Notes under the pieces: generated by a model | Told to the model about the DNA's origin: nothing | Databases searched by the model: none | The model's input: only the letters and a program-made list of their open reading frames with translations | Shown here: piece after piece, positions 11,563 through 40,746 of the stretch | Numbering within the stretch: position 1 is the first letter of the stretch | How the letters are laid out: each line of letters opens with the position of its first letter | NCBI GenBank assembly: GCA_903970285.1 | Contig: CAJCHN010000014.1 | Coordinates: 1 to 64,000, forward strand | Direction: 5' to 3' | Origin: Rhodanobacteraceae bacterium | Lineage (GTDB): Bacteria; Acidobacteriota; Terriglobia; Terriglobales; Acidobacteriaceae | Length of the DNA: 64,000 nt | Translations under genes and position numbers: made by a program

Positions 11563-11614
11563 GGTTCCGACGGACTTTCAGCCGGTCTAAGGTGCCGACG
11601 GACTTTCAGCCGGC
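11559..11614. repeat. Two adjacent copies of a 28-bp direct repeat at convergent gene ends
   Basis: Copy 1 (11559-11586) and copy 2 (11587-11614) are head-to-tail and differ at two positions. Both begin CTAAGG and contain CGACGGACTTTCAGCCGG. The plus-strand TAA in copy 1 ends the permease; the minus-strand TAG in copy 2 ends lspA. Thus the last residues of LspA (ESPSAP) are encoded by the antisense of one repeat unit. A simple tandem duplication is the likely origin. Confidence 0.9.
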
Positions 11615-12144
11615 TGGGTTGGCGGCTGTGACTCGGCCGGCGACGAGCGGAATATCTCGATCAGCAGAAGGCACGCACCGATCACGATGCACGAGTCGGC
11701 CACGTTGAAGTCGGGCCAGTGATAGTGCACGATCTTGACCTCGAGGAAGTCGACCACGTAGGAATACCGGACGCGGTCGTACAGGTTGCCGATGGCGCCT
11801 CCAAGGATCAGCGCCAGGGCGACGCCGGTCGGGGTCAGGCGCCGGCCCACCTGCCAGATCATTCCGAGCACCACGACGACGGCGACGATCGAGAATCCGA
11901 TCAGCACGTCACGCACAATGCGCGGCGAAAGTGATTCCGCAAACAGCGAAAAGGCTGCGCCGGTATTGAACACGTGCGAGATGCGGAAGAAGCCCGGGAC
12001 GACGGTGATGAAGTGTCCGCTCGGCACATGCAGGTCGACCCAAAGCTTGCTCAGGCGGTCCAGCAGAATCACTGCCGCCGCAATCAGCAGCAACCACGGA
12101 CGCGAATCGCGTCCACTCCGATGCACAATCTGTAACTCCGACAT
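11587..12144 (-). CDS. lspA: Lipoprotein signal peptidase (signal peptidase II)
   Basis: A 185-residue inner-membrane aspartyl protease that removes the signal peptide of diacylated prolipoproteins. The two catalytic Asp blocks are GGAIGNLYDRVRYSYVVDF and FNVADSCIVIGA; four hydrophobic helices are visible, the first containing LLDRLSKLWVD. AGGAG just upstream of the ATG at 12144 sets the start. The Pro/Ser/Gln-rich tail (residues about 166-185) is longer than usual and its end comes from a duplicated 28-bp unit. It lies 22 bases after ileS, the widespread ileS-lspA pair. Confidence 0.95.
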   Translation of the reverse strand: MSELQIVHRSGRDSRPWLLLIAAAVILLDRLSKLWVDLHVPSGHFITVVPGFFRISHVFNTGAAFSLFAESLSPRIVRDVLIGFSIVAVVVVLGMIWQVGRRLTPTGVALALILGGAIGNLYDRVRYSYVVDFLEVKIVHYHWPDFNVADSCIVIGACLLLIEIFRSSPAESQPPTQPAESPSAP

Positions 12145-12166
12145 CACTCTCCTGAATTTGTTGTGT

Positions 12167-24732: not shown

Positions 24733-26340
24733 TCAGCTCTTAGGGTCCGGCTTAGGCGAGGCTTTTGCAGGAGTCCGTGCACCGGAGCGTTGTTGTTCCA
24801 GCAGCGCCTGCAGCGCGGAGAGGACTTCCTTCGCCTTGTCAGGCTGGCCGAGGTGACGGTAAGCGACGGCGAGATGCGAGTAGGCAGAGTTCTCGCCCGG
24901 GTCGATGGCACGCGCAGCTTCGAACTGCGCGGCGGCCTCCTGATAGCGCTCCTCGCGCAGGTAAATGGTTCCGAGCGAGATGTGCGGCAGGCAGAGCGCA
25001 GGGTTCAGCTTGACTGATTTTTCGAGCGCTTGCTGGGCTTCGGCATAAGCGGGCTGGCCGGGTGCTGCGCCGGCTGAAAGCAGGCCTTCGCCGAGCAGAT
25101 AGAGGAGACTTGGATCGTTGGGCTTCTGGCGGAGCTCGGCTCGCGTGACCTTGAGGGCCTGGGCGGAGTCTCCGTGCTGCAGGTAAGCCGAGCCCAGGCC
25201 GACGGCCCCGAGATCGTGTTGCGGGTTGAGCAGCGAGGCCTGCTGGAAGTCATTCTCGGCGAGGTCGAAGTTGTCCTCGGATGCCTCGACGACTCCGCGC
25301 ATGAAGAGGAGCCGCTCGGATCGAGGATGGGTTTGGAGGCCCAGGGCAAGTACCTTCAGGGCATCGTCGAAGCCGCGGTGATCGAGGCAAACGGAGGCGT
25401 AATCGAGGTAGTTGTCTTCGTCGGCAGGATCGATGGCGATCGCTCTGCGAAACGCATCGAGAGCATCTCGGGTCGCTCCGTTGGCTGCGAATGCCTCCCC
25501 CAGCAGGTTTTCGAGTTCTGAGGAATCGTGACCGCGGCCGATCAGCTCCTGCAGGGTGGCGATAGCGGTTGGGTACTGCCGGTCGCGGAGGCAGGCGAGG
25601 GCGAGGTCGAAGCCGATGTCGTAGGAATCGGGATCGTGCTTGAACGCCTCGGCGAGATAGGGAATCGCCTGCTCATTGCTGTCGGATTCGGCGAGGGTGA
25701 CGCCGAGCGTGAGTTGCGACTGAGGATCGAAGCCGGCGGGCGTGGTCTGGCTGAGCAGTTCGAGCGCCTGCTGCTTCTGGCCGCTCCGCAGCAGGCTTAC
25801 GGCGAGGTGTGCGGTGAGGCTTCCGTTGCGGGTTACAAGCTGGCTGGCGCGGTTCAGGCGCTCCGCGGCCAGGCTGTAGTGCTGCTGGTTGTAGGCAATC
25901 TCGCCGAGGTAGATGTTGATGGTGGGATCGTCGGGAAGCTGTTGCTGCGCCGCGAGGAGATGCTTCTCGGCAAGCGAGTATTGATGGGCGTTGAACTCGC
26001 TGACGGAGAGATTCTTGAGCGCGGGCAGGAAGTGCGGGTCCAGCTTGAGGGCGCGTTCGAAGTAGCGGTCGGCCTGCGTACTTTCGCCCTTGCCGGAGCA
26101 GGCGATGCCAGCCAGGTTGAGCGCCTTGAGATTGCGCGGGTCGGCTGCCAGAACGCGGTTGACGGCCGCGAGACCTTCGTCCCAGCGGCGGCTGCGGACG
26201 AGCGACTCGGCGCGGTCGTACTCGGCCTGGATGTTGGCTGGCGTCTGACCGGGGACGAGTTTCGCGTCAAGCTGAAGGGCGAGGAGGAGCAAGACACAAC
26301 GGACTGCTTTGCTCCAGCCGACGGATGTAAGGCTTCTCAT
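24733..26340 (-). CDS. Exported TPR-repeat protein
   Basis: A 535-residue protein with a signal peptide (MRSLTSVGWSKAVRCVLLLLALQLDAKLVPGQ) and then about twelve tetratricopeptide repeats, for example LAAVNRVLAADPRNLKALNLAG, YFERALKLDPHFLPALKNLS and AAQFEAARAIDPGENSAYSHLA. TPR arrays bind other proteins, and exported ones often act in envelope assembly or in glycan export. No catalytic motif is visible. It is 20 bases downstream of the AraR-type regulator on the same strand and may be cotranscribed with it, suggesting a link to the sugar-use genes on the other side. Confidence 0.85.
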   Translation of the reverse strand: MRSLTSVGWSKAVRCVLLLLALQLDAKLVPGQTPANIQAEYDRAESLVRSRRWDEGLAAVNRVLAADPRNLKALNLAGIACSGKGESTQADRYFERALKLDPHFLPALKNLSVSEFNAHQYSLAEKHLLAAQQQLPDDPTINIYLGEIAYNQQHYSLAAERLNRASQLVTRNGSLTAHLAVSLLRSGQKQQALELLSQTTPAGFDPQSQLTLGVTLAESDSNEQAIPYLAEAFKHDPDSYDIGFDLALACLRDRQYPTAIATLQELIGRGHDSSELENLLGEAFAANGATRDALDAFRRAIAIDPADEDNYLDYASVCLDHRGFDDALKVLALGLQTHPRSERLLFMRGVVEASEDNFDLAENDFQQASLLNPQHDLGAVGLGSAYLQHGDSAQALKVTRAELRQKPNDPSLLYLLGEGLLSAGAAPGQPAYAEAQQALEKSVKLNPALCLPHISLGTIYLREERYQEAAAQFEAARAIDPGENSAYSHLAVAYRHLGQPDKAKEVLSALQALLEQQRSGARTPAKASPKPDPKS

Positions 26341-26360: not shown

Positions 26361-27467
26361 TCAGCGGGTGGATTCCCTGACGACGAGATGGAAATTTACG
26401 TTCACGTCGCGGGCCGGCATCTGGGGATTGGAGGCGCGGTCCAGCATGGCTCCCAGAGCCGCGGCGCCGAGATCAAGGCAGGGCTGGTGAATGGTGGTGA
26501 GCGGGGTCTGCAGGATGGTGGCGTAGCGGATGTCGTCCATGCCGGCTACTTTGACCTGGGACGGGACGCGGAAGCCGAGCGAACTGAGCGAGGTCATGAG
26601 CTGGCCGGCGGTGAAGTCGTTGGCGCAGACCACGCCGTCGGGCTGAATGCGATCCATCATGTCGCGAACCAGCGGGAGATCGGTGGGGTCGCTGAGGACG
26701 ACGGATTCCTCAAGATGGAGGTCGGGATGCTTGCGAATGGCGTCTCCGTAGCCCATGGCTCTCGCGCTGACTGTGGGGGCGGAGTTTGGCCGGCCCAAGA
26801 AGGCGATGCGCCTGGCGCCGGACTCGATAAGATGCTCGGTCACGACGAAGCCGGCGCGCCGATTGTCGATGCCGACGAGGTCGTAGCGGCTGCGGTCGGG
26901 GAAGTCGCAGATATCGCGGTCCAAGAGGACGATGGGGATGTTTGCTGCGTCGAGCGCGGCGGTGATGCGCCGGTTGACCTCGTCCTTGGCCTGGGTGAGT
27001 TCCATTGGAGCGAAGAAGACTCCGGTGACGCCGCGCTGAATGTAGTAGCGGCAGAGATCCTCGGCCTGGGCTTCTTCGGAGGCTCCGGGCGAGAAGGTCG
27101 GTCCCCAGAGCAGATCATGGTGGCCTCCGACGCGCGCCATGGAGATGCCCCGGCAGATGGGCTCAAAGATCTCGGTGGCGCCAAGCTCGGGGATGAGCAG
27201 GCCGAAGATGAAACCGTCGCGGCGCTCGGGGACGCGGGCGAAGGTTCCGGAGCCGGCGCGCCGCTCGACCAGGCCCTCGGTTTCAAGCTGCGCCAGGGCG
27301 CGCCCGACGGTAGGGCGACTCGCGCCGAACTGCTCGACGAGTTCGTTTTCACTCGGGAGCTTGCTTCCAGCCTCATATTCCCCGTTGCGGAGAGACTTGA
27401 GGAGCGTGGTGTAGATGAACTTGTACTTGGGACCGGAGTCCAGACGTTTTGTCGTTGCCACAAGCAT
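26361..27467 (-). CDS. AraR-type transcriptional regulator (GntR DNA-binding plus LacI sensor domain)
   Basis: A 368-residue repressor with an N-terminal GntR winged helix (about 15-80; KYKFIYTTLLKSLRNGEYEAG, LPSENELVEQFGASRPTVGR, LVERRAGSGTFARV) and a C-terminal periplasmic-binding-like sugar sensor (FIFGLLIPELGATEIFEPIC, IPIVLLDRDI, LVGIDNRRAG, DGVVCANDFTAGQL). This is the fold of AraR, which responds to sugars. GGGGAGAG lies close ahead of the ATG at 27467; a GTG two codons later is an alternative start. It is divergent from the TonB-dependent receptor and GH32 genes and probably controls them. Confidence 0.9.
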   Translation of the reverse strand: MLVATTKRLDSGPKYKFIYTTLLKSLRNGEYEAGSKLPSENELVEQFGASRPTVGRALAQLETEGLVERRAGSGTFARVPERRDGFIFGLLIPELGATEIFEPICRGISMARVGGHHDLLWGPTFSPGASEEAQAEDLCRYYIQRGVTGVFFAPMELTQAKDEVNRRITAALDAANIPIVLLDRDICDFPDRSRYDLVGIDNRRAGFVVTEHLIESGARRIAFLGRPNSAPTVSARAMGYGDAIRKHPDLHLEESVVLSDPTDLPLVRDMMDRIQPDGVVCANDFTAGQLMTSLSSLGFRVPSQVKVAGMDDIRYATILQTPLTTIHQPCLDLGAAALGAMLDRASNPQMPARDVNVNFHLVVRESTR

Positions 27468-27742: not shown

Positions 27743-27835
27743 TGCGGTTCGAATCAGAACTACAAGTTTCCCTGTTTGTGAAGTTTTCGTGACCGGCATA
27801 ACCCTGCCCGCCGCGAGATTTTGAGGAGGTCGTCC

Positions 27836-30800
27836 ATGCGCCGTTTCAGAAGTCTATTTTTCACCATCCTTTGCGGAATGCTTCTCTCAACCGCCGCCGC
27901 CCTCGGCCAGTTCAGCAGCTCGATCGAGGGCACCGTAACCGACAGTTCGGGCGCGATCGTGCCCAACGCGAAGGTGGTGCTGACCGGTATAGCGACCGGA
28001 GCCGAGAACACCACCAAGTCGAATTCGTCCGGATATTACAAGTTTCCTTCGCTCGGGCCGGGAAGCTACCGGGTGACGGTGACCGCGCCGGGGTTCGGGA
28101 CGCAGACGGTCGATCAGATCCTGTTGATCGCGGAGCAGACCCGCGGTGTGGCGATCACGCTGCGGCCGGCATCGGAGACCCAGACGGTTACGGTTCAGGC
28201 GTCCGAGCTGCAGGTGGATACGGACGAGGCGAAGATCAGCTCCGTCACCACGGAACGAGAGATTGAAGAGCTCCCTTTGCAGGGGCGCGACGTCTTCAAC
28301 GTGGCCAACCAGGCACCGGGGGTCACCGGGACCGGGCTGATGGGAACACCGTCGCAGAACCAGGACATCTTCCAGGACACGACGACTCCGGCGGTGGTCG
28401 CCAATGGCGCGCCGAACCACAGCAACACCTATCTGCTCGACGGCATTTCGCTGGACGACTCGCCTTCGGGCGGCGACTCGAAGCTGGTGCCGAGTCCGGA
28501 CGCGCTGCAATCAGTGGTGATCTCGACCAGCGACTACTCGGCGCAATTCGGCAAGGCAGCCAGCCTGGTGCTGCAGATGACGACCAAGGCTGGAACCAAC
28601 CAGTTTCATGGCAATCTCTTCGAGGCTTACCAGAGCAGCGGACTGACAGCGCGCCGGTTTACCGACAACTTCAAGCTTCCGCAGTTCGGCGGGAAGTACC
28701 TTCCTCCACTCACACGAAACGAGTTTGGCGGGTCGTTCGGCGGCCCCATCTTCAAGGACAGGACGTTCTTCTTCGTTACCTACGACCAGGTGATCCAGCA
28801 GACTTCAAACGACGGCCAGGTGCAATTTGAAGATCCTGCCTTCGTTGCGTTCGAGGCTGCGAACTATCCCAACACGCTGACTTATCAGTTGATGAAGGCT
28901 TACCCGGTCACCAACTTCAACCCGACACCGAACCGCATTATTACTGTCGCTGAAGAGCAAGCGAATGACGGGTTTATCCCCAGCCCGGCGCAGAACTGCG
29001 CGAAACCGACGACCGATCCCAACCAAGTGGGGCCACTGAATATGCCCTGCAACATGCCCCTGCTGGATAATTCGAACACCACCACGATTTTCCCGCATAA
29101 CGGGTTCCAGGATCATTTCCGGATCGATCACGACTTTGCCAACCAGAAGGACCGCATCTACGCGAACATGTTCGCAGGGAAGCTGACCGGCGCGGGAGAC
29201 ACCAACCCGCGGACGGCGTTCGATACGGACGGCGTTCAGGGCCAGTGGTACGGCGCGATGAACTATACCCATACCTTCTCCCCGACCCTGTTGAATGACG
29301 TGTCGTTCGGCTTCAGCCGCATCAATTTCAACCAGCCGTGCACCCATTGCAATCTGCTTTACGTGGGTGCTCCTGACGAGGACAACTACGGAAACGGCGG
29401 AAGTCCGGTCAGCTTCGCGCAGAACGACTTCCATTTCCGCGACATGGTCTCGATCGTTCGCGGACGGCACGCGATAAAGACCGGCTTCGAGATGTTCCAC
29501 AACCAGGACCAGGCGCCTTTCAGCCCGAACGACAATCGCAACCAGGGCTGGGGCTTCTTCAATCCGTGGGACTTCGCCATTGGGCAGGTTGATGAGTATG
29601 GCACCGTGATCGTGAATCCGCTTACGGGCGGGGTCGCCAACGGAGACCACTACTTCCGTGACAGCACCTACGGCGCTTACGTCCAGGATGACTGGAAGGT
29701 GCGCCGAAACCTTTCACTCAACATTGGATTGCGCTGGGACGCGACCTCGAACCCGACAGAAGCGCACGGCAACCTGAATCCGCTGATTGTGCCGCAGGGC
29801 GTACCGCTGATGGAGCAGATCGCCGGAGTAGCGGTGAACGTGACACCGGGTATCCATCACCCGTTTATCGATCACAAGAAGAGCTACTTCGCACCGCGGT
29901 TCGGTTTCTCCTACGAGGTGGCTCCGCAGTGGTCCATTCGCGGCGGCGCAGGCATCTTCTTCGATCGCGGCGGCAACACCAACTGGAGCGACACCGAGGC
30001 CAACAATCCTCCGGGTATCGACAACGTGAGCACGGCGACGAACATCCCGGGTCCGCAGCCTCCAAGCACCTTCCAGCTGTGCGCCAGCAGTACCTTCCCG
30101 TATGGGTGCCCGGTTCCCGCCGGTATTCTGGCGACGCTGGCGCAGCCCAATGGGCGGGGCGGCTATGGGACTACCAGCAACATCGGCGGTACCGATCCGC
30201 ACCTGAAGATGGCGTATCTCGAGAACATCTTCCTGGGCGTGCAGCATGCGTTCAAGTCGCACTGGCTGGTCGAGGCGGATGGGACCCACGCCGCATCCGT
30301 GCATGAGTACAGCATCACCAACCTCAATCGGCGGGACGGAGAGAACAACATCGCCGCCGGCTTTACTGGTGTGTCGTACGGCGCATTCAACAGCATGCCG
30401 AATTACATCAACCAGGCCGATCTTCCAAACCCCTACTTTGGCGCCATCACCTACACCACAAACGCGGCGTGGTCGCAATACGATGGCTTCGTGGCCCTGC
30501 TGCGCAAGACCTACTCCAAGGGCAATTCATTCCAGGTCGCCTACACCTTCGAGAAGACAATCGATGACATCAGCACCGCTCCCGGCGCACAGAAGGGGGC
30601 TGAATACTCCGTGGTGGTGGATGCTTACAACACCTCGGCGCAGCGCGGATTGTCGAGCCAGAACATTCCGCAGCAGGTCTCCGCGAACGGCGTAGTCGAG
30701 CTCCCGACGCCTTTCCTGCACGATGGCCTGCTGAAGAACATCATTGGTGGTTTCCAGGTCAGCGCCCTGAGCGCGTGGATGAAGGGCATTCCGACCTCCA

Positions 30801-31327
30801 TCTTCAGCTCCAGGCAGCAGGACGACTTCAATGAGGACGGACAATATTACGACTTTCCCAACCGTCCGGTTCCCGGCACCAAGCTGAAGAACTATACCCA
30901 CCAGGAGTTCTTCAACGGCACCTTCAGTCAGAACATTACGCAGAGTACAACCGGGCCAAGCTGGCCGTTTACCATCTTCCCGCTGCCGGTCAACCAAAAC
31001 GGCGTGCCGCTGGGCGTAGAAGGCAACGGAGGGCGCAATACGGTGGAGGGTCCGGGCTTCTTCCAGATCGACACCGCTTTGGAAAAGAACACACAGATTC
31101 CCTGGTTCCAGCAGGAGCACGCGAAGCTGCAGTTCCGGGTAGACCTCTACAACATTCTCAATCACAAGAACCTGCAGGGCTGGGACACCAACCTTGCGGA
31201 CAGTCAAGTCGGGCATGCGAATCCCGCCGATCCGACCAGTCCGCTGGTCGAAACCGGCAGCTTCGGCAAGATCAACGGTCAGGGGCAGGCTAGAACGCTG
31301 CAGCTTCAGGCGCAACTCCGCTTCTAG
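27836..31327 (+). CDS. Oar-like TonB-dependent receptor with N-terminal carboxypeptidase regulatory-like domain
   Basis: A 1163-residue outer-membrane protein. After a signal peptide ending near ALGQFSS comes a Cna-B/carboxypeptidase regulatory-like domain (EGTVTDSSGAIVPNAKVVLTG, YKFPSLGPGSYRVTV), then a plug domain (RDVFNVANQAPGV, NGAPNHSNTYLLDG) and a long beta-barrel (GAYVQDDWKVRRNLSLNIGL near residue 620; C-terminal strand QGQARTLQLQAQLRF ending in Phe). It imports a large ligand, probably an oligosaccharide given its neighbours, using TonB. GAGGAGGT at 27823-27830 fixes the ATG at 27836. A terminator follows at 31395. Confidence 0.92.
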   Translation: MRRFRSLFFTILCGMLLSTAAALGQFSSSIEGTVTDSSGAIVPNAKVVLTGIATGAENTTKSNSSGYYKFPSLGPGSYRVTVTAPGFGTQTVDQILLIAEQTRGVAITLRPASETQTVTVQASELQVDTDEAKISSVTTEREIEELPLQGRDVFNVANQAPGVTGTGLMGTPSQNQDIFQDTTTPAVVANGAPNHSNTYLLDGISLDDSPSGGDSKLVPSPDALQSVVISTSDYSAQFGKAASLVLQMTTKAGTNQFHGNLFEAYQSSGLTARRFTDNFKLPQFGGKYLPPLTRNEFGGSFGGPIFKDRTFFFVTYDQVIQQTSNDGQVQFEDPAFVAFEAANYPNTLTYQLMKAYPVTNFNPTPNRIITVAEEQANDGFIPSPAQNCAKPTTDPNQVGPLNMPCNMPLLDNSNTTTIFPHNGFQDHFRIDHDFANQKDRIYANMFAGKLTGAGDTNPRTAFDTDGVQGQWYGAMNYTHTFSPTLLNDVSFGFSRINFNQPCTHCNLLYVGAPDEDNYGNGGSPVSFAQNDFHFRDMVSIVRGRHAIKTGFEMFHNQDQAPFSPNDNRNQGWGFFNPWDFAIGQVDEYGTVIVNPLTGGVANGDHYFRDSTYGAYVQDDWKVRRNLSLNIGLRWDATSNPTEAHGNLNPLIVPQGVPLMEQIAGVAVNVTPGIHHPFIDHKKSYFAPRFGFSYEVAPQWSIRGGAGIFFDRGGNTNWSDTEANNPPGIDNVSTATNIPGPQPPSTFQLCASSTFPYGCPVPAGILATLAQPNGRGGYGTTSNIGGTDPHLKMAYLENIFLGVQHAFKSHWLVEADGTHAASVHEYSITNLNRRDGENNIAAGFTGVSYGAFNSMPNYINQADLPNPYFGAITYTTNAAWSQYDGFVALLRKTYSKGNSFQVAYTFEKTIDDISTAPGAQKGAEYSVVVDAYNTSAQRGLSSQNIPQQVSANGVVELPTPFLHDGLLKNIIGGFQVSALSAWMKGIPTSIFSSRQQDDFNEDGQYYDFPNRPVPGTKLKNYTHQEFFNGTFSQNITQSTTGPSWPFTIFPLPVNQNGVPLGVEGNGGRNTVEGPGFFQIDTALEKNTQIPWFQQEHAKLQFRVDLYNILNHKNLQGWDTNLADSQVGHANPADPTSPLVETGSFGKINGQGQARTLQLQAQLRF

Positions 31328-31468: not shown

Positions 31469-33688
31469 ATGGAAGACAACGGAAAGACCAGGCAGACCAG
31501 CATTCCCACCGGGCTGGCGGTTACACCGGGCGAGGGGTTCGCTCTATCGCGACGGTCTCTGCTGGCGGCGGCTGGCGTGATGTGGTTTCCGCGCTGGATG
31601 CGGGCCGACTCGGACGCGGCGCCGGTGCTGCACTGGAAGCTCGGGGAGGGTGGCGACTTTGCGGTCGAAGCGGTCAGCGGGACGAGCGACGCCATCTCGT
31701 CGCGGACGGGGCACGCCATCTGGGTTGGGCAGGGCAGCAGCCGCGGGCTGCGATTCGATGGCTACTCGGTCTGGTTCCGGCACGCTCCGCAGGCAGGCAT
31801 CGCTCTCGGAGAAGCGATCACCGTGATGGCGTGGGTTGCGCTCGAGGCGTATCCGGTGAGCGAGGCAGCCCTGCTGCAGATGGACGCAGTGGCTGGAACG
31901 GAATTCCGCTTCTCGATCGATCGGTTCGGCTACCTGCAATGCGGGCGGCATCCAGGCGATGCGGAGAGCGTCTGCAGGTCGACCGAGCCTGTCGCCAAAG
32001 GGAAGTGGGTTCATCTGGCCGCCAGCATGGGCAGGAGCGGCATCACGCTCTATCGCGATGGAGCGGCGTCCGGGCATCTGGCCAATCCGATCGGCGACCT
32101 CAAAGCTGCGGAGGGCGTCAGCTTCGTGGTCGGAGAATCGCCTGACTGTGAGGTGATCGCGAGGGTATTTCCAACCGGTGTGCTGAATGGTCTGGTGCGC
32201 GAGGTGCAGGTGTTCGGCCGGGAGCTTTCGCCGGGCGAACTGACGTCGATCATGGCCGTGTCGCGTCCGCAGGGTGTGGCCGATCTCCAGATCAACGGCG
32301 CGTGGTGCGTCGATGATCCGCAGCGTCCGGTGTGCCACGCGCAGCCTCCGCGAGCCTGGACCAATGAGCCGCACGGCCTCATCCACTGGAAAGGGCAATA
32401 CCACATCTTCTACCAGAAGAATCCGGATGGGCCGTATTGGAGCCGCCTGAACTGGGGCCACATGACGAGTCCGGACCTGCTGCGCTGGACCGAGATGCCC
32501 GTGGCGATAAGCCCGGAATTGCCCTACGAGAGCAAGGGCTGCTGGTCGGGCAGCGTGATCGATCATGCGGGCAAGCTGACGCTGGTCTACACCGGTGTGG
32601 ACGAGGTGAAGGCGGGGATTTCAGTCGCGCACAGCGACGATGGGATACGTTTCACGAAGTATGCGGGGAACCCTGTGATTCCGTCACCGCCTGGGCGTGA
32701 CTACCTCGACTTCCGGGATCCGTTTGTCTGGCGCGAAGGCGAGGTCTACTACCTGATCGTCGGCTCCGGGCTGAAGGATGTCGGAGGCACCGCTCTGCTC
32801 TACCGTTCGAAGGATCTGATGGGCTGGGAGTTCCTGCATCCGATCTTCACCGGGGACAAGCAGAGCTCCGGCTCATTCTTTGAGATGCCCATCTTCGTGA
32901 AGGATGGAGACCGCCACGCACTGATCGTGAGCGAATTGCCGGGACGAGCGTCCTACTGGGTGGGGGAGTGGAAGAATGAGATCTTTACTCCCATGTCTGC
33001 CGCACCGCGGCACCTGGAGCTGTTCAATCACCTGCTGAGTCCGACGCCGATGATCGAAGCGGATGGGCAGATTGTCGTGATGGGCATCATCCCCGACGAA
33101 CGATCGGCGAAGGAGATGTGGCGTGCGGGCTGGGCGCACCTCTACTCCTTGCCCCGGGTGCTTACGATCGATGCGAGTGGCCAGGTTCTGCAGAGACCGC
33201 ACCCGAGCCTTGAGGCGCTGTGCAAGCCGCTGCAAACGGTCCCGGAGATGAACCTGGACGCCGGCTCGGTGCGCGATGTGCCCGGGCTGGCCGAGACCAG
33301 CCTGCGGGTTCGCGCGACCTTGAAGCGCGGTCAATCCACATCGGTTTCGTTGCTGCTCAGGCGCTCTCCGGACGGCCGGGAGCAGACCGAGATTCGGTAC
33401 GACTGGGAGCAGGGAAGTCTGACGCTCGACCGGACGCAATCCAGCCTCGATCCCAGGGTGAGGCGCGACCGGCAGGAGACGCAGTATGCCTCGGCGGAGA
33501 AGGATTCGATTCACCTCGACGCGTTCGTGGATCGCTCGGTTCTCGAAGTCTTCGTGGATGGGCGCGCCGCGTTTGCCGCGCGCATTTACCCTACGCTGAA
33601 AGAAAGCGTGGGCGTCGCGTTTTCCGCCGCGGGTGCGGGAGCCCGGGCTGAGGGAGTCAGCCTTGCACGGCTACAGCGGCCAGGCTGA
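31469..33688 (+). CDS. GH32-type fructan/sucrose hydrolase with LamG-like N-terminal domain
   Basis: A 739-residue exported enzyme. A twin-arginine-like signal (LSRRSLLAAAGVMWFP) leads to a concanavalin A/LamG-like domain (about 50-250), a five-bladed propeller of GH32 (about 285-560) and a C-terminal beta-sandwich (IHLDAFVDRSVLEVFVDGRA). Propeller motifs: AWTNEPHGLIHWKGQYHIFY where GH32 normally has WMNDPNG, so the nucleophile position is Glu (about residue 300); LDFRDPFVW (RDP, Asp about 417); and SFFEMPIFV, aligned with the ECP motif, acid/base Glu about 472. It would cut fructose-containing glycans such as levan, inulin or sucrose. The Asp-to-Glu change is discussed in the findings. Confidence 0.85.
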   Translation: MEDNGKTRQTSIPTGLAVTPGEGFALSRRSLLAAAGVMWFPRWMRADSDAAPVLHWKLGEGGDFAVEAVSGTSDAISSRTGHAIWVGQGSSRGLRFDGYSVWFRHAPQAGIALGEAITVMAWVALEAYPVSEAALLQMDAVAGTEFRFSIDRFGYLQCGRHPGDAESVCRSTEPVAKGKWVHLAASMGRSGITLYRDGAASGHLANPIGDLKAAEGVSFVVGESPDCEVIARVFPTGVLNGLVREVQVFGRELSPGELTSIMAVSRPQGVADLQINGAWCVDDPQRPVCHAQPPRAWTNEPHGLIHWKGQYHIFYQKNPDGPYWSRLNWGHMTSPDLLRWTEMPVAISPELPYESKGCWSGSVIDHAGKLTLVYTGVDEVKAGISVAHSDDGIRFTKYAGNPVIPSPPGRDYLDFRDPFVWREGEVYYLIVGSGLKDVGGTALLYRSKDLMGWEFLHPIFTGDKQSSGSFFEMPIFVKDGDRHALIVSELPGRASYWVGEWKNEIFTPMSAAPRHLELFNHLLSPTPMIEADGQIVVMGIIPDERSAKEMWRAGWAHLYSLPRVLTIDASGQVLQRPHPSLEALCKPLQTVPEMNLDAGSVRDVPGLAETSLRVRATLKRGQSTSVSLLLRRSPDGREQTEIRYDWEQGSLTLDRTQSSLDPRVRRDRQETQYASAEKDSIHLDAFVDRSVLEVFVDGRAAFAARIYPTLKESVGVAFSAAGAGARAEGVSLARLQRPG

Positions 33689-33889: not shown

Positions 33890-34351
33890 TTTCCACCTCT
33901 TTGAAATTACCACATGCGGGATGGAGGAACTAAGGTGGACCCGGACACGCTCGGTCACCGAGCGTCGCGGTGATGGTGCCGAGTGCGGGTGTGTCTTCGC
34001 GCTCGATTTCAACCGCTTCGTCGGTTATGCTCTCGGGAGCCACGCAGCAGGACATTTGTGCCTGCTCTGGTAAATTTGTACCGCAAAATCCTCCGCTTAC
34101 CACTAAAGTGGCAGCAGGGACACATTGACTTGGTGATAGACGATCAGTAGCCTTCATGTATTGCATTGAAAAGTGTGCATTGCAGGCTCCTCGTGCGGGG
34201 AGATACCGGGTGCTGGCATGAGGGAGATCGTTCGAACCGGAGGTTTGGATCGGGATCTGAGCCGTGCGTGCGATCGCGACTGGCCGGGATGCAACAGCAA
34301 CGCAGGGCAAGCAGCGGTCGAGCAGAAAGCCTTCGATCGGGAAGCGACAAG
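33890..34351. other. Intergenic region ahead of the cellulose synthesis genes
   Basis: A 462-base gap between tRNA-Lys and the BcsQ-like gene. Reading frames here show no family similarity, and the open frame from 34166 that continues into the BcsQ-like gene lacks protein-like character. The element TGCATTG occurs twice at about 34160-34192. I see no recognisable c-di-GMP riboswitch or strong terminator. The cellulose gene promoter presumably lies here. Confidence 0.5.
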
Positions 34352-36184
34352 ATGGACATGCACATGACTGATCATCCCGAAGAACCGGTTCCGGAGACTC
34401 CGGAAGATGTGGCGATCCTCTATTCGTGGGCCAATCTACATGGAGCCAAGTATCGGGATTTTTCTGCTTCGCGCCGGGAGTACCGGGCGCAGCTTCGGCA
34501 CCGTGCCGCCGAGGAGCTTCGCCAGGCTGAATTGAGGGCGCAGGCGGAGGCGGAAGCCGCAGCGGCGGAGGCTGAGCGGATAGCGCGTGACGCGGAACGG
34601 GCGGCCCGCGGCACGGAACGATACGAGAGTGCAAGCGACCGCGAGCGGGCTCTGCGCGAGGCCGAAGAGGCTGCGCGGCGAGCATCTGCGGAGCGGGTGG
34701 AGGCGGCGCGGCGGGCGGAAGCGGCTGCCATGGCGGAGGCGGCCGCCCGGCGCGAAGAGCGGGAGATTGCCGAGGCGCACGCCTCCGCGCAGCGACAGGC
34801 GGCGCGCTGGAACGACTCGGAGATCCGGCGGAGGAGTCTGGCCGGGCCGCAGCCGGTGCGTGCTCCGTCTGCGCCTGGCGATCCCTATGTAGTGGCCCAG
34901 GGCTCGACCGTGGATGGCTATCTGCCGACTCCGAACGAGGCGCTGGAATATACCCAGCCGATGCGGTATCGCGATGAGGAACGCCCGGTCTTTCGCCAGC
35001 CCGAGCCGGACGTGCGGCGTCCGCGCGGCTACCGTCCGGATCAATCGTCGGGGATTCGCCCAGCCTATGTGGCTCCGCCGCAGGAACCTGCAGGCCGCCC
35101 GCGGGGCCAATCGCCGGCGGAGAGGCTGCGCGAGGCAGGTGAGGAAGCGCAGGACCTGGCGTCGGGCGGGCAGGGGCAAACCTACAATCCGCCGCCTTCG
35201 GGGCCAGCCTATGACGCCGGTCCGGCGCCCGCCTGGTTGTATGGCGCGAATGCCGCTGCGGCGGGTGCGGGGAGCAATCCGGGGCTGCGATCCGCGGGTA
35301 CCACGGGAGCGGACACGCTGCAGAGCTCGCGGGAGCGGGTGGCGGCACGCTGGTACGCGTTGAAGGGAGTCTTTGAAGCGGGGCCTGCGCGGGCTCAGGA
35401 GTCTCAAGGACCGCAGGCGGAGACCAGGACCCCGGTGCTGGCGATCTTCTCGCTGGCTGGGGGCGTGGGGAAGACCAGCATGGTCGCCACGCTGGGCCGG
35501 GCGCTGTCCTCGCTGGGCGAAAAGGTGCTTCTGGCGGATACCACGTCGCATGGTCTGCTGCCCTACTATTTCGGGGCGACGGAGCTGAAGCACGGGGTGA
35601 TTCGCACATTTTCGCCGCCCAGCGGCAGCGTCGACGCGCCCATTCACTTGGTGAGCTACGACGGCGAGCAGACGGGAAGCAGCCCGGCCGGGCAGCAGGA
35701 GCTCGCAGAGGAACTGACCCGCGCGGCGGCCACGGCACAGCGGGTGCTGATCGACATGAATGCGCCGATGGGGTGGCTGATCCGGCGGCTTGGCGGGATG
35801 AATGCCACGGTGCTGGTACCGGTGGCTCCGGACATGAATTCCGTGATCAGCCTGCAGGCGGTGGAACGCTACTTCACCGGGGCGGTGGATGCGGACGGCC
35901 GTCCGCTGCTGCCGTACTATGTGTTGAACCAGTTCGATGCCTCGCTCCCGCTTCACCTGGACGTCCGCGAGGTGTTGCGGCGGCAGCTTGCAGATCGGCT
36001 GCTGCCGTTCGTCATCCGCCGTGCTCCCGCAGTCAGCGAAGCCCTGGCCGAGGGAATGACCGTCGTCGACTATCAGCCCGAGAGCGCGGTCGCGGAAGAC
36101 CATCTGAATATCGCCAACTGGCTTCGCGGCTTCTCCGCACCGGTATCCCAAGGTTTCCGAACCATTCGATGGAGTGAACGATGA
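34352..36184 (+). CDS. bcsQ: BcsQ-like ParA/MinD-type ATPase with long N-terminal extension
   Basis: A 610-residue protein. Residues about 365-610 form a MinD/ParA-type ATPase of the YhjQ/BcsQ group: LAIFSLAGGVGKTSMVATLG (Walker A, Lys about 374), VLIDMNAPMGWLIRRLGG and VLVPVAPDMNSVISLQAVER. BcsQ guides polar localisation of cellulose synthase in enterobacteria. BcsQ is usually about 250 residues; here roughly 360 residues come first: a conserved-looking piece (DVAILYSWANLHGAKYRDF), an Ala/Glu/Arg-rich coiled coil (about 45-150) and a Pro/Arg-rich linker. The start codon is the ATG at 34352, with GGGAAG ahead. Its TGA overlaps the next ATG by four bases (ATGA). Confidence 0.82.
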   Translation: MDMHMTDHPEEPVPETPEDVAILYSWANLHGAKYRDFSASRREYRAQLRHRAAEELRQAELRAQAEAEAAAAEAERIARDAERAARGTERYESASDRERALREAEEAARRASAERVEAARRAEAAAMAEAAARREEREIAEAHASAQRQAARWNDSEIRRRSLAGPQPVRAPSAPGDPYVVAQGSTVDGYLPTPNEALEYTQPMRYRDEERPVFRQPEPDVRRPRGYRPDQSSGIRPAYVAPPQEPAGRPRGQSPAERLREAGEEAQDLASGGQGQTYNPPPSGPAYDAGPAPAWLYGANAAAAGAGSNPGLRSAGTTGADTLQSSRERVAARWYALKGVFEAGPARAQESQGPQAETRTPVLAIFSLAGGVGKTSMVATLGRALSSLGEKVLLADTTSHGLLPYYFGATELKHGVIRTFSPPSGSVDAPIHLVSYDGEQTGSSPAGQQELAEELTRAAATAQRVLIDMNAPMGWLIRRLGGMNATVLVPVAPDMNSVISLQAVERYFTGAVDADGRPLLPYYVLNQFDASLPLHLDVREVLRRQLADRLLPFVIRRAPAVSEALAEGMTVVDYQPESAVAEDHLNIANWLRGFSAPVSQGFRTIRWSER

Positions 36185-39100
36185 CAAGGTCTCCGCTGTG
36201 GAGAGAGTTTGAGTCCGGCGACAGTTTCCTGCTGGTCCTGATCCGCTGGACGATTATGCTGGGCGGGCTGCTGCTGCTGTTTTTTACCGGCATCCTGGAG
36301 CTGACCTGGCCGCAGCAGGCGGTACTCGGCCTGCTGATGGTACTGATTGCGATCTGGATGGACAAAAGCTCCAGCTCATACCTGGTGACGTTGACGCTGA
36401 TGCTGGTCTCCTGCTTCTCCACCTTCCGTTATGGATGGTGGAGAATCTCGACCGTCATCCGGTTCTTCCGCGATCCGGGAAGCAACTGGACGTGGCTCGA
36501 CTTCTTTTTCATCATCCTGCTGGTACTGGCGGAGACGTACGCTTTCATTATTCTGTTCCTCGGTTATCTGCAGACGTTGTGGCCGCTGCGCCGCACACCG
36601 GTGCCGCTGCCGGATGATCCGGAGCTGTGGCCGGCCGTCGATCTGCTGATTCCCACCTACAACGAGCCGCTTTCGGTGGTGAAGTACACGGCGCTGGCGG
36701 CGATGAACATCGACTGGCCGGCAGACAAGCTGAACGTCTACATTCTGGACGACGGCAAGCGGGAGGAGTTCCGCAGCTTTGCCGAAGAGGCGGGCATCGG
36801 CTACATGACCCGCGAGGACAACAAGCACGCCAAGGCGGGCAACATCAACCGGGCGCTGGAGCGCCTGGACGCGCCGTTCGTGGCCATCTTTGACTCCGAT
36901 CACGTGCCCACGCGCAGCTTTCTGCAGGTGACGCTGGGCTGGTTCCTGCGCGACCGCAAGCTGGGCATGCTGCAGACGCCGCATCACTTCTACTCGCCCG
37001 ACCCGTTCGAGCGGAACCTGAACCAGTTCCGTGTGATTCCGAACGAGGGTGAGCTCTTCTACGGCGTGGTGCAGGATGGCAACGACTTCTGGAACGCGAC
37101 GTTCTTCTGCGGGTCCTGTGCGGTGCTGCGCCGGACCGCGCTGGACGAGGTGGGCGGCATTGCGGTCGAGACGGTGACCGAAGATGCGCATACGTCGTTG
37201 CGGATGCAGATGCGCGGCTGGAACACCGCGTACATCAATATTCCGCAGGCCGCGGGCCTGGCGACGGAGCGTCTGAGCGGCCACGTGAAGCAGCGCATCC
37301 GCTGGGCGCGCGGGATGATCCAGATTCTGCGCATCGAAAATCCGCTGTTTGCCCCGGGCCTGCGGGCAGCGCAGCGCCTGTGCTACTTCAACGCGATGAC
37401 GCACTTTCTGTACGCGCTGCCGCGCCTGATCTTTTTGACTGCGCCGCTGATCTACCTGATCCTCGGGCACACCAACGTTCCGGGGTACTGGGCGGCGATC
37501 CTGGCTTATGCGTTCCCGCACCTGGTGCTTTCATCGCTGACCAACTCGCGGATTCAGGGGCAGCACCGGCACTCGTTCTGGAACGAGATTTATGAGACCG
37601 TGCTGGCGCCGTACATCTTCATTCCGACCATGCTGGCGCTGATCAATCCCAAGCTGGGCAGCTTCAACGTGACGGCCAAGGGCGGCGTGGTCAATCGCAG
37701 CTTCTTCGACACGCGCATCGCCCAGCCGTTTCTGCTGATGCTCTTCCTCAACGTGGTCGGGGTGCTGATGGCGATCCCACGGTACTTCCACTTCCCGGGT
37801 TGGCCGCTCGATATGTTCTACGACGGCAGCCATCCTGGAACGATCGTGATGAACCTGTTCTGGGCCTTCTTCAACATCACCGTGCTGGGGGTCGCGACCG
37901 CGGTGGCGTGGGAGAGCCAGCAGCGCCGCCAGACGGTGCGCGTGGCGATGAGCGTGCCTGCTGACGTCATCCTTGCGGACGAAAGCGTGGTGCAGGGGCT
38001 TACGGCCGATCTTTCGAGCGGCGGCGTGATGCTGCATATCGATCGCGCCTTTACGGCGCTGCCGGGCGAGAGCGTGAAGCTGGTGTTCCCGGTGCTGGAT
38101 GGAGACGCGACGTTGCCGGCGACTGTGATCAGCGCGACCGGCGGTACGCTGCGGGCGCAGTTCGAAGGGTTGAATCTGCAGGAGGAAGAGGCGCTGACGA
38201 TGATTCTGTACTCGCGCGCCGACACCTGGCTGGGCTGGGGCGAAGCCCGCGAGGCGGACCGTCCGCTGGCCAGCCTGGGACGGATCTTCCAGCTTTCCTT
38301 CCATGGGCTTAGCCAAACCATTCGCGGGCTGATGACCTCCAGAAAACAGAGAACACCGAAGGGCCGGCTGGCGACGACGATTGTGCGGCTGATTCTGCTG
38401 GGGGTGGCCGTTGGTCTGCTGTACCATTCCGCATTCGCGCAGCCGGTTCCAGTCCAGCCGGTGCCGATGCAGAGCGCCGGCGCTGCGACCTCCGCCGGAC
38501 CGGCGCCCACGGCAACGTTCGCGGCGCTGCAGCGGGATGGCGGAGTGCCGATGCGGCCGATGCCGCCGGGCGAGTTCGACAACCGATTTACGCTGGCCGA
38601 CGTCGGCGTCAGCGACACCATCGTGCTGCGCGGCGTCGATGCCTACCACTCGGTTTTTTTTTCCATCCCGCAGACGCAGTTGGTAAAAACCGCGGTGATG
38701 CACATCCGCTATCACTTCTCACCGGGTCTGCTGCCGGACATCAGCCACATCAAGGTGAGCTTGAACGGCACGCTGTTCGCGACGCTGCCGGTGACGACGC
38801 GGCCGGCGTTCGTCGCCCCGCCGGGTGATATTACGCCGGAGCAGAAGCTGGCCGAGGAGCAGTCGCTGGCCTTGGCGCGCAACGAGACTGGCGCGATGCT
38901 CGAAGCCAATCTGGTGATGCCCGCCGAGATGCTGGTGCACAATAACGAGCTGACGTTCGAGTTTATCGGCCACTACACGTTCCAGTGCGAAGACCCCTCT
39001 CACTCCACGCTGTGGAGTCACGTCGACAATACAACGACGCTGGAGTTTACAGGCTCCCTGATCACGTTGCCGAACGACCTCAGCCTGTTGCCGCTGCCAT

Positions 39101-40746
39101 TCTACGATTCGGCGGTGAACCTGCATCCGGTGATCCCGATCGTCTTTCTCACCCAGCCCTCGCCCCAGGCGTTGAAGGCGGCCGGCATCATCGCATCTTA
39201 TTTCGGCATTCTGACGGATTATCGTCCCGTCCATTTTCCGGTCTCAATCGGCAGCATACCGGCCGGCAATGCGGTGGTCATCGCCGAGTCGTCCACGCAA
39301 CTTGGGCCGCTGGGCGTGACCTCGGTAGCCGGCCCGACCCTCGCCATGCGGCCCAACCCATCCGACCGCTTTTCGAAGCTGCTGGTGGTGACGGGGGGCA
39401 CGCCGGATGAGCTGGTTGCGGCGGCGCAGGCGCTGGTGGTTCCGCACGGCGATATCTATCAGGGCGAGCAGGCGCAGGTCCATCTGCCGTCGCATCTGCC
39501 CGAGCGCAGGCCGGATGATGCACCGCGCTGGCTGAGCACCGACCACATTACGCCCATCGGCCAGATCAGCCAGACCGGCGATCTGCAGGGCGACGGCAGT
39601 GAACCGGTCAACGTGTATCTGCGGGTTCCGCCCGACCTCTATACGGCTTCGCTGCAAAATCTGAGCTATCACCTGAGCTACCGGTACAACGGCATTCCGC
39701 TGGCGAACGAAAGCTCCTTGCAGGTCTTCGTGAATACCGCGTACGTCAGCTCCACGCCGATGCCGCATACGGAGAAGGCGTCGGCGGTGCTTTCGACGGT
39801 GGTGCCGATCCCGAAGTACGACATGCGTCCGTTTTCGAATACGCTGATGCAGCGTTTTATCTTTCAGATAGCGAAGAAGGGCAAGTGTCAGGACACCGCT
39901 CCGCTGAATCTGCAGGGTGCGATCCTGAAAGAGTCGTACCTCGATATCACCGGGATTCCGCACTGGGTGATCCTGCCGGAGCTGGAGATCTTCGCCAACG
40001 CCGGCTACCCGTTCACCCGCAAGGCGGACCTGTCCGACACGGCGGTCGTGCTTCCGGACGCGCCGACCGCGGACGAAGTGGAGATGTACCTGACGCTGAT
40101 GGGACACTTCGGCGCGCAGACCGGCTACCCGGTGCTGAACGTGACCGTGACCAACAACGACGGAATGAAATCGGACCACTCGAAGGATTACCTGGTGATG
40201 GGTACGGTGGACGATCAGCCGGCGCTGACCACCCTCGGTCGTTCGCTGCCGGTCATGATCTCTCCCGATGGGCTGAAGGTGCAGGATACGCGCGGCTTCT
40301 TTGCCCCGCTGCAGCAGGCGTGGTGGAAGGTGCGCAGCTCGGACCGCGTGGAGACCAACCAGCTGGAGGTTGCGGGCGGAATGCCGGACGCCATGATCGA
40401 AGGGCTGGAATGGCCGAGCGGGTCCAAGCGTTCGGTGGTTGTGATTGCGCTGCGTGATCACAACGTGGTTCCGAAGTTTCTGAACGCGTTCCTGAAGTAC
40501 TCGCAGTCGTCGCACATCTCGCAATCGGTCAGCGTTTTGCACGATGAGGACTTCACCTCGTATCGCATCGGGAACGATGCCTACAGGGTGGGTTCGCTGC
40601 CTTTCTGGATTCAGCTGAGTATGCTGGCTTCGCAGTATCCGTGGTTGATGGTGATTGTGGCGATCGTTATCTGCGTGCTCATGGCCGCGCTCATCCGCGC
40701 GTTCCTCCGGCGCAGAGCGCGGGTGCGGCTGCAGGGCACGGAGTAG
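36181..40746 (+). CDS. bcsA: Cellulose synthase, fused catalytic (BcsA) and periplasmic (BcsB) subunits
   Basis: A 1521-residue fusion. The BcsA half has several membrane helices and a GT2 domain (about 155-400) with ILDDGKR (DDG about 190), FDSDHVP (DxD about 238), VTEDAHTS (TED about 333) and QRIRWARG (QxxRW about 371), then a PilZ c-di-GMP domain (RRQTVRVAM, then DLSSGGVMLH, about 582-690). After a hydrophobic segment near 735 the BcsB half (about 760-1480) carries carbohydrate-binding modules and ends with a membrane helix (WLMVIVAIVICVLMAALI). It polymerises UDP-glucose to beta-1,4-glucan and passes it through the inner membrane. A similar AcsAB fusion is known in Komagataeibacter. Coupled to bcsQ by ATGA. 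Confidence 0.95.
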   Translation: MTRSPLWREFESGDSFLLVLIRWTIMLGGLLLLFFTGILELTWPQQAVLGLLMVLIAIWMDKSSSSYLVTLTLMLVSCFSTFRYGWWRISTVIRFFRDPGSNWTWLDFFFIILLVLAETYAFIILFLGYLQTLWPLRRTPVPLPDDPELWPAVDLLIPTYNEPLSVVKYTALAAMNIDWPADKLNVYILDDGKREEFRSFAEEAGIGYMTREDNKHAKAGNINRALERLDAPFVAIFDSDHVPTRSFLQVTLGWFLRDRKLGMLQTPHHFYSPDPFERNLNQFRVIPNEGELFYGVVQDGNDFWNATFFCGSCAVLRRTALDEVGGIAVETVTEDAHTSLRMQMRGWNTAYINIPQAAGLATERLSGHVKQRIRWARGMIQILRIENPLFAPGLRAAQRLCYFNAMTHFLYALPRLIFLTAPLIYLILGHTNVPGYWAAILAYAFPHLVLSSLTNSRIQGQHRHSFWNEIYETVLAPYIFIPTMLALINPKLGSFNVTAKGGVVNRSFFDTRIAQPFLLMLFLNVVGVLMAIPRYFHFPGWPLDMFYDGSHPGTIVMNLFWAFFNITVLGVATAVAWESQQRRQTVRVAMSVPADVILADESVVQGLTADLSSGGVMLHIDRAFTALPGESVKLVFPVLDGDATLPATVISATGGTLRAQFEGLNLQEEEALTMILYSRADTWLGWGEAREADRPLASLGRIFQLSFHGLSQTIRGLMTSRKQRTPKGRLATTIVRLILLGVAVGLLYHSAFAQPVPVQPVPMQSAGAATSAGPAPTATFAALQRDGGVPMRPMPPGEFDNRFTLADVGVSDTIVLRGVDAYHSVFFSIPQTQLVKTAVMHIRYHFSPGLLPDISHIKVSLNGTLFATLPVTTRPAFVAPPGDITPEQKLAEEQSLALARNETGAMLEANLVMPAEMLVHNNELTFEFIGHYTFQCEDPSHSTLWSHVDNTTTLEFTGSLITLPNDLSLLPLPFYDSAVNLHPVIPIVFLTQPSPQALKAAGIIASYFGILTDYRPVHFPVSIGSIPAGNAVVIAESSTQLGPLGVTSVAGPTLAMRPNPSDRFSKLLVVTGGTPDELVAAAQALVVPHGDIYQGEQAQVHLPSHLPERRPDDAPRWLSTDHITPIGQISQTGDLQGDGSEPVNVYLRVPPDLYTASLQNLSYHLSYRYNGIPLANESSLQVFVNTAYVSSTPMPHTEKASAVLSTVVPIPKYDMRPFSNTLMQRFIFQIAKKGKCQDTAPLNLQGAILKESYLDITGIPHWVILPELEIFANAGYPFTRKADLSDTAVVLPDAPTADEVEMYLTLMGHFGAQTGYPVLNVTVTNNDGMKSDHSKDYLVMGTVDDQPALTTLGRSLPVMISPDGLKVQDTRGFFAPLQQAWWKVRSSDRVETNQLEVAGGMPDAMIEGLEWPSGSKRSVVVIALRDHNVVPKFLNAFLKYSQSSHISQSVSVLHDEDFTSYRIGNDAYRVGSLPFWIQLSMLASQYPWLMVIVAIVICVLMAALIRAFLRRRARVRLQGTE

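Follow-up and report, generated by a model that had tools for sequence, protein, structure and literature searches.

A GH32 protein with glutamate at the nucleophile position, probably an endo-inulinase, in an Acidobacteriaceae genome

The gene and its protein

The DNA analysed (the window) comprised the first 64,000 nucleotides of contig CAJCHN010000014.1, from an Acidobacteriaceae genome deposited as Rhodanobacteraceae bacterium (GenBank assembly GCA_903970285.1), in which a gene of glycoside hydrolase family 32 (GH32) lies next to a TonB-type receptor gene (Table 1). Its 739-residue product carries the motifs WTNEPHG, FRDP and FEMP. At the nucleophile position the protein has Glu300, and it retains Asp417 and Glu472. 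Three residues of the enzymes with Asp at that position (Asp-type, as opposed to Glu-type), namely a Cys, a Tyr and a Trp, are missing from its branch. Judged from its sequence, the protein is probably an exported retaining GH32 endo-inulinase of the Glu-nucleophile kind, cutting inulin in mid-chain.

The motif TGGACCAATGAGCCGCACGG (W-T-N-E-P-H-G) was found at 32357-32376 (+), in frame within the open reading frame (ORF), and a degenerate pattern for it had a single match in the whole window and none in 100 shuffles. The interval 32357-32884, corresponding to W297 to E472, had been described in an initial annotation as having Glu (about residue 300) at the nucleophile position, EMP for ECP and an intact RDP, and the alignments agreed: Glu300 and Glu472 aligned, respectively, with the WMNDPNG Asp and the ECP Glu of the Thermotoga maritima enzyme (1uyp/1w2t), both of which we take to be its catalytic residues, and Asp417 aligned with the RDP Asp of solved GH32 enzymes. 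The Pfam domains Glyco_hydro_32N (208.6 bits vs. a cut-off of 22.1) and Glyco_hydro_32C (87.1 vs. 21.9) were both present, while the NCBIfam models ScrB (TIGR01322; 226.3 vs. 356.4) and BfrA (NF041092; 175.2 vs. 900) scored below their cut-offs. The LamG domain named in the same annotation was recovered by Pfam as Laminin_G_3, and its twin-arginine translocation (Tat)-like signal corresponds, by eye, to a twin-arginine signal-like stretch (LSRRSLLAAAG, about residues 27-37), with counterparts in three intact acidobacterial homologues (SRRSFL, SRRFLL and TRRSFV).

An AlphaFold2 (AF2) model from a 32-sequence alignment (predicted local distance difference test score, pLDDT, 88.3) had a five-bladed propeller and a beta-sandwich. 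The 50 solved matches listed by the fold search were all GH32 and related fructan enzymes, headed by the T. maritima beta-fructosidase BfrA (Z 45.2, root-mean-square deviation (rmsd) 2.2, 422 aligned residues, 29% identity), which differs from the window protein in having WMNDPNG and ECP. The endo-inulinase 3sc7 (Z 41.3, rmsd 2.3, 444 aligned residues) and the endo-levanase BT1760 (Z 33.6) were also among them. Among the matches for P0001, L051 and L146 no solved structure came from the Glu-type branch, the best being 7vco. With its Pfam domains, the RDP and acid/base Glu, the fold and a carboxylate nucleophile in WxN(D/E)P, the protein belongs to GH32. A sequencing error or pseudogene was rejected, because no stop interrupts the 739-residue ORF and three homologues at 43-56% identity retain the motif.

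Table 1. Coordinates of the Glu-type GH32 gene, its domains and key residues, and the neighbouring genes in the window
Feature	Position	Strand	Basis
GH32 gene, 739 aa, LamG + GH32N + GH32C, Glu nucleophile (endo-inulinase type, probable)	31469..33688	+	ORF, Pfam
N-terminal signal-like region, residues 1-46, twin-arginine motif SRRSLL	31469..31606	+	Sequence; twin Arg kept in three homologues
Laminin_G_3 (concanavalin-A-like) domain, residues 111-258	31799..32242	+	Pfam
GH32 N-terminal catalytic (propeller) domain, residues 290-577	32336..33199	+	Pfam, AF2 model, fold search
Glu300, nucleophile position (WTNEPHG)	32366..32368	+	Motif, alignment
Asp417 of RDP, transition-state stabiliser by homology	32717..32719	+	Alignment
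Glu472 of EMP, acid/base by homology	32882..32884	+	Alignment
Met473, Cys in Asp-type GH32 (100/104)	32885..32887	+	Column comparison
Leu523, Tyr in Asp-type GH32 (103/104)	33035..33037	+	Column comparison
Ile540, Trp in Asp-type GH32 (104/104)	33086..33088	+	Column comparison
GH32 C-terminal beta-sandwich, residues 607-724	33287..33640	+	Pfam
TonB-dependent-receptor-type outer membrane protein with carboxypeptidase regulatory-like domain	27821..31327	+	
GntR-type DNA-binding domain fused to LacI-type sugar-binding domain, likely regulator	26361..27467	-	
TPR protein; a look-alike, by eye, adjoins the regulator in G388 (L042)	24733..26340	-	

Residue signature, extent and origin of the Glu-type branch

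A total of 195 GH32 domains were aligned, and 85 bacterial Glu-type rows were compared with 104 Asp-type rows; four rows without the nucleophile column were omitted from the 87/104 counts, and loci L063 and L074 from the 85. The Asp-type rows do not cover GH32 as a whole: they were drawn from Acidobacteriota, from the families of two Glu-bearing genomes and from the surroundings of Glu-type genes. The Glu-type set was gathered mostly through the Glu motif, which makes Glu in 85 of 85 a matter of selection. Some rows came from protein and profile searches (best matches only), partly in genomes or families picked because they hold a Glu-type gene; searches of the latter added 51 distinct rows, 48 with Asp, two with Glu and one without the column.

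Three other columns, not selected on but chosen from all columns after the comparison, changed together with the nucleophile. Position 473 was Met, Leu or Val in all 85 Glu-type rows (Cys in 100 of 104 Asp-type rows), position 540 was Ile, Val, Met or Phe in all 85 (Trp in 104 of 104), and position 523 was mostly Leu (58), Thr (20) or Ile (5), with others (Tyr in 103 of 104). All three of Cys, Tyr and Trp were lost in 85/85 Glu-type rows and kept in 99/104 Asp-type rows, the other five having lost only one. Moreover, position 302 was His in 82 of 85 vs. Asn in 91 of 104. A further Trp, Trp335, is said to narrow the exo-inulinase pocket (PMC6560043) and coincides, by manual count, with Glu544: 76 of 104 Asp-type rows had Trp there, and the 85 Glu-type rows had Arg (38), Lys (16), Glu (6) or another residue. 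The pocket-narrowing Trp is thus lost in the window protein at Glu544, as is the Trp at Ile540.

Only E300, D417 and E472 were fully invariant among the acids of the catalytic domain in 32 full-length Glu-type proteins, and D417 and E472 were kept in 85 of 85 bacterial Glu-type rows. D283 and D336 were nearly invariant in the Glu type, and position 517 (E517) was acidic in 84 of 85. That a neighbouring Asp might take over the nucleophile role, a condition raised in the initial annotation, is unlikely on these sequences: D283, D336 and E517 do not appear as specific substitutes, because many or most Asp-type rows likewise have an acid at these positions (Asp at 336 in 103/104, Asp at 517 in 99/104, Asp or Glu at 283 in 67/104).

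Across 398 genomes of the same family, the motif pattern was present in five, own genome included. Glu was kept in the homologues of G388, G621 and G573, which share 43-56% identity, the LamG-like region, WTNEPHG and WEMP, and in a G592 copy that is split between two frames. Asp was present in every other Acidobacteriota GH32 domain found that covers the nucleophile position. A protein search of a phylum sample gave a match in 61 of 396 genomes, with a match of at least 65% only in G000 and G388. A minor branch with NEPH had been suggested as a possibility; such a branch does exist, but it is large. Scanning a collection of 84,980 species for the Glu motif gave 116 stretches, all readable, and the motif lay inside a GH32 protein in 92 of them, the other 24 being under the score limit (weak scores among these were 39.1 for L061, 14.3 for L132 and 12.9 for L142). 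The 92 loci belonged to Bacteroidota (32), Pseudomonadota (24), Bacillota (14), Actinomycetota (10), Acidobacteriota (3), Rhodothermota (2), Calditrichota (1) and Methanobacteriota (1), with four of no phylum and one under a Myxococcota label (L063), and the branch spans at least eight phyla. LamG was present in 31 of the 32 full-length Glu-type proteins chosen for alignment.

Several loci stood apart. L063 (NYXK01000007.1) carries a Deltaproteobacteria label as a metagenome-assembled genome (MAG), its best solved relative is the fungal endo-inulinase INU2 (E 1.3e-216) and further GH32 pieces lie in the same frame; it is probably fungal contamination. L074 (1848-3473, a Saprospiraceae MAG) is a single-step variant, with a Glu nucleophile and with Cys (ECP), Tyr and Trp kept. 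In two Bacillota loci, of Fredinandcohnia and Paenibacillus (L118 1516-6852, L156 1848-8000), Asp-type and Glu-type GH32 domains stand in tandem in one protein. Rare motif variants in the branch were WTNECHG and WANEPYG (L157 150-2534, L107 3586-6114, L153 1372-3903). In G592 (L039/L111), the frame of the Glu-type gene breaks just past WTNEPHGLIHWGG, by assembly error or decay.

The placement in a GH32 tree proposed in the initial annotation was carried out with 133 of 144 domains and with the motif columns removed (three domains without the column and eight more than 90% identical to kept rows were left out). Glu required three changes in this tree, one for 79 bacterial rows on one side of a branch (Shimodaira-Hasegawa-like approximate likelihood ratio test, SH-aLRT, 97), one for L063 and one for L074. 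The window protein fell in a 57-row starred set together with L051, L069 and L120. Approximately unbiased (AU) tests, made on 49 of the 133 rows (36 of them random draws) with quick trees and with groups named after the first tree had been viewed, rejected a single clade of all Glu rows (P = 2.8e-42) and a single clade of the bacterial Glu rows plus L063 (P = 2.5e-5).

At the columns in question L063 had Glu (nucleophile), Val (473), Val (540) and Asp (523), and its Val473 and Asp523 coincide, by manual count on the alignment, with V234 and D298 of INU2. Convergence between the bacterial and fungal-type enzymes, in Glu and in the loss of Cys, Tyr and Trp, is likely on these sequences but not proven, because the groups were named post hoc, the end branch of L063 is long (1.29 vs. 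a median of 0.36) and the Asp rows do not represent GH32 at large. We consider it evenly balanced whether fungi and bacteria made the change from Asp to Glu independently, giving two or more such events that each entailed loss of the same Cys, Tyr and Trp, with the four positions forming one coupled endo-inulinase switch. If this were true, activity could be predicted from sequence across kingdoms, and L074, in which only the nucleophile differs from the Asp type, would offer a natural one-step test of the switch.

The surrounding locus and related gene sets

The regulator, the TonB-type receptor and the GH32 gene, with partner genes on another contig, would suit a system for using fructans in which the polymer is cleaved outside, the products are taken up and hydrolysis is completed inside. 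The same order was found in G388 (the TPR protein by eye), where an Asp-type GH32 and a sugar porter stand between the receptor and the Glu-type gene. In G573 the Glu-type GH32 was accompanied by two further GH32 genes, one Asp-type with WTNDPNG and one with SLGDPCA, by a PfkB kinase, a sugar porter and a DUF2961 gene, by a regulator and a receptor recognised by eye, and by a psicose-3-epimerase-like gene that scored under its model cut-off; DUF2961 is given as GH172 in PMC8605356. On contig C132 of the own genome, an Asp-type GH32 (WMNDPNG, WECP), a GDPCA-type GH32 and a PfkB kinase were found.

Beside the Glu-type GH32 of L041, a DUF2961 (GH172-kind) gene (11446-12528) and a psicose-3-epimerase-like TIM barrel (14199-15035) were observed, and the same kind of epimerase adjoins the Glu-type copy of L040; such neighbours hint at unusual ketose products. 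A second divergent GH32 branch has GFLGDPCA or SLGDPCA for WMNDPNG, with Asn lost and Asp and ECP kept (G000 contig C132, L003 1018-2784 (-); L041 12567-14126). A levan-acting enzyme may be suggested for it, as a lead by analogy, because the motif of the endo-levanase BT1760 is printed as GFVGDPMP (PMC5245892). Downstream of the Glu-type gene, the window continues with the start of a cellulose-synthesis operon (BcsQ, BcsA-BcsB), in which BcsA and BcsB share a single 1521-residue frame (36181-40746), preceded by a BcsQ frame (34166-36184) with about 420 residues ahead of the BcsQ domain.

Predicted activity and competing explanations

The initial annotation had called for characterisation of the Glu type, but Glu is the published nucleophile of one endo-inulinase and the putative one, by mutation, of another. 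Glu43 is reported as the nucleophile of Aspergillus ficuum INU2, within YWMNEPNG (PMC5245892), and PMC6042768 names the catalytic E43 and calls T100, G196, V234 and D298 unique to endo-inulinase; Glu20 of the A. ficuum enzyme is credited to Park et al. 2003, as cited in PMC13416181. For the endo-inulinase EnIA of Arthrobacter sp. S37 (GH32, EC 3.2.1.7), the review PMC5984348 states that Glu323, Asp460 and Glu519 were mutated by Kim et al. 2008: E323A and E519A lowered kcat with Km unchanged, consistent with nucleophile and acid/base, and D460A was inactive. The same review gives the gene as 2439 bp and prints motif F as ECMP and motif A as 319-WMNDEPNGL-327, while residues N322, Q339 and R459 are given in PMC7545266.

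By these published numbers, the window protein resembles EnIA in a Glu that follows Asn, with Gln 16 residues on (N322/E323/Q339 vs. N299/E300/Q316), in an R-D pair (R459/Asp460 vs. R416/D417), in E-M-P at motif F, if the printed ECMP is so read, and in the roughly 300 residues that precede Glu. It differs in motif A (M and N in EnIA vs. T and H) and in its host (Actinomycetota vs. Acidobacteriota). The S37 spacings of 137/59 recur in four Actinomycetota members of the Glu branch, L051, L069, L083 and L120 (134/59 in a fifth, L102), and L051 has 489 residues past Glu (819 less 330), the same number as calculated for S37 from 2439 bp with the stop codon. With INU2 the protein shares the Glu nucleophile, the loss of Cys after the acid/base (V234 in INU2), the loss of Tyr (D298) and the loss of the loop-4 Trp. 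INU2 differs in belonging to a separate GH32 branch, as placed through its near relative L063, in WMNEPNG vs. WTNEPHG, and in a solved chain of 516 residues that is nearly all GH32, with no room for a LamG domain. BT1760 shares the GH32 fold and is endo-acting, but its nucleophile is Asp62 and it keeps ECP (PMC5245892). Endo action in general was therefore rejected as the cause of Glu. The bacterial WTNEPHG motif was not found in print among the matches listed by motif-string literature searches, the broader of which mostly listed the electrophoresis term NEPHGE, while the narrower one reached fructan-enzyme papers through MNEPNG alone, and no paper title on an acidobacterial endo-inulinase was found among the literature matches listed for Acidobacteria, inulin and GH32.

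In the proposed mechanism, Glu300 would attack the C2 of an internal fructosyl unit of inulin, Glu472 would protonate the leaving group and then activate water, and Asp417 would stabilise the transition state, with retention of configuration. The lost side chains would leave a wider pocket for several fructosyl units, and an internal cut is proposed to follow from this. A sugar-binding role is probable for the LamG domain. Uptake of the oligosaccharides would be by way of the TonB-type receptor encoded next to it, and their breakdown would be completed by a PfkB sugar kinase and Asp-type GH32 paralogues whose genes lie elsewhere in the genome. Of the change in geometry or chemistry that the initial annotation had anticipated, a changed pocket is expected but no new chemistry: by analogy, catalysis should follow the ordinary retaining GH32 mechanism, because Glu is already the published nucleophile of the fungal and, putatively, the bacterial endo-inulinase.

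Several points weigh against this assignment. The activity of the protein and its acidobacterial sisters is predicted from sequence, and the fold search cannot separate endo from exo action. The placement of S37 in the Glu branch uses published residue numbers only, the window protein has spacings of 117/55 instead of 137/59, and the printed S37 motif A, WMNDEPNGL, differs from WTNEPHG; it was read as a consensus, because the numbering of N322 fits W320-x-N322-E323. Among the residues called unique to INU2, the positions of V234 and D298 are changed here but to Met473 and Leu523, and T100 is not shared, Ser360 standing there as in most Asp-type rows. Furthermore, L074 has Glu without the other three changes, L201 has an Asp nucleophile with EMP, a near-complete Asp-type GH32 occurred in the same stretch (up to 8 kb) in only 24 of the 92 Glu-type loci, and two or more GH32-like ORFs occurred in 44 of them.

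That the protein acts in endo fashion on a different fructan, for instance levan or one of mixed linkage, is unlikely, although this is the best placed of the alternatives: the residue signature speaks to an open site and not to linkage, and the locus has its own TonB-type receptor, but the endo-levanase BT1760 keeps Asp and ECP within GFVGDPMP (PMC5245892) and both Glu enzymes found described in print are endo-inulinases. Slightly less likely is a Glu-nucleophile fructanotransferase making cyclic inulo-oligosaccharides or difructose anhydride, like the Paenibacillus fructanotransferases (CFTases). The reported CFTase substrate is inulin, a 20-row subclade of the Glu branch (WMNEPHG/A, ELP) includes long Paenibacillus proteins, and in G573 a DUF2961 gene of the GH172 kind adjoins the enzyme. 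On the other hand, the window protein lies outside that subclade and has EMP, as printed for the S37 hydrolase, and ELP occurs also once outside the subclade (L137).

It is a little less likely still that the protein is an ordinary exo-acting beta-fructosidase with Glu simply replacing Asp. Among solved structures it is matched best, in both sequence and fold, by Asp beta-fructosidases and invertase-type enzymes, and L074 indicates that Glu can coexist with Cys, Tyr and Trp, but the window protein has lost all three, and the own genome holds a separate Asp-type GH32 on contig C132. A catalytically dead fructan-binding protein, which the unusual nucleophile alone would allow, is very improbable, given that Glu serves at the same place in two published enzymes and that the three acids are invariant over 32 sequences.

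An endo-inulinase with Glu at the nucleophile position, as the two enzymes in print have, is therefore preferred. Glu at this position is already a known mark of endo-inulinases, and the apparent four-position convergence may be of specialist interest. With this gene, an acidobacterial fructan-uptake locus would join a GH32 branch whose chemistry can be read from two distant published enzymes. For annotation, proteins with WxNEPHG and E[ML]P and without the loop-4 Trp would be candidate endo-inulinases, not sucrose-6-phosphate hydrolases or inactive enzymes, and the convergent four-residue set would offer a testable idea of how the pocket changes from exo to endo action in GH32.

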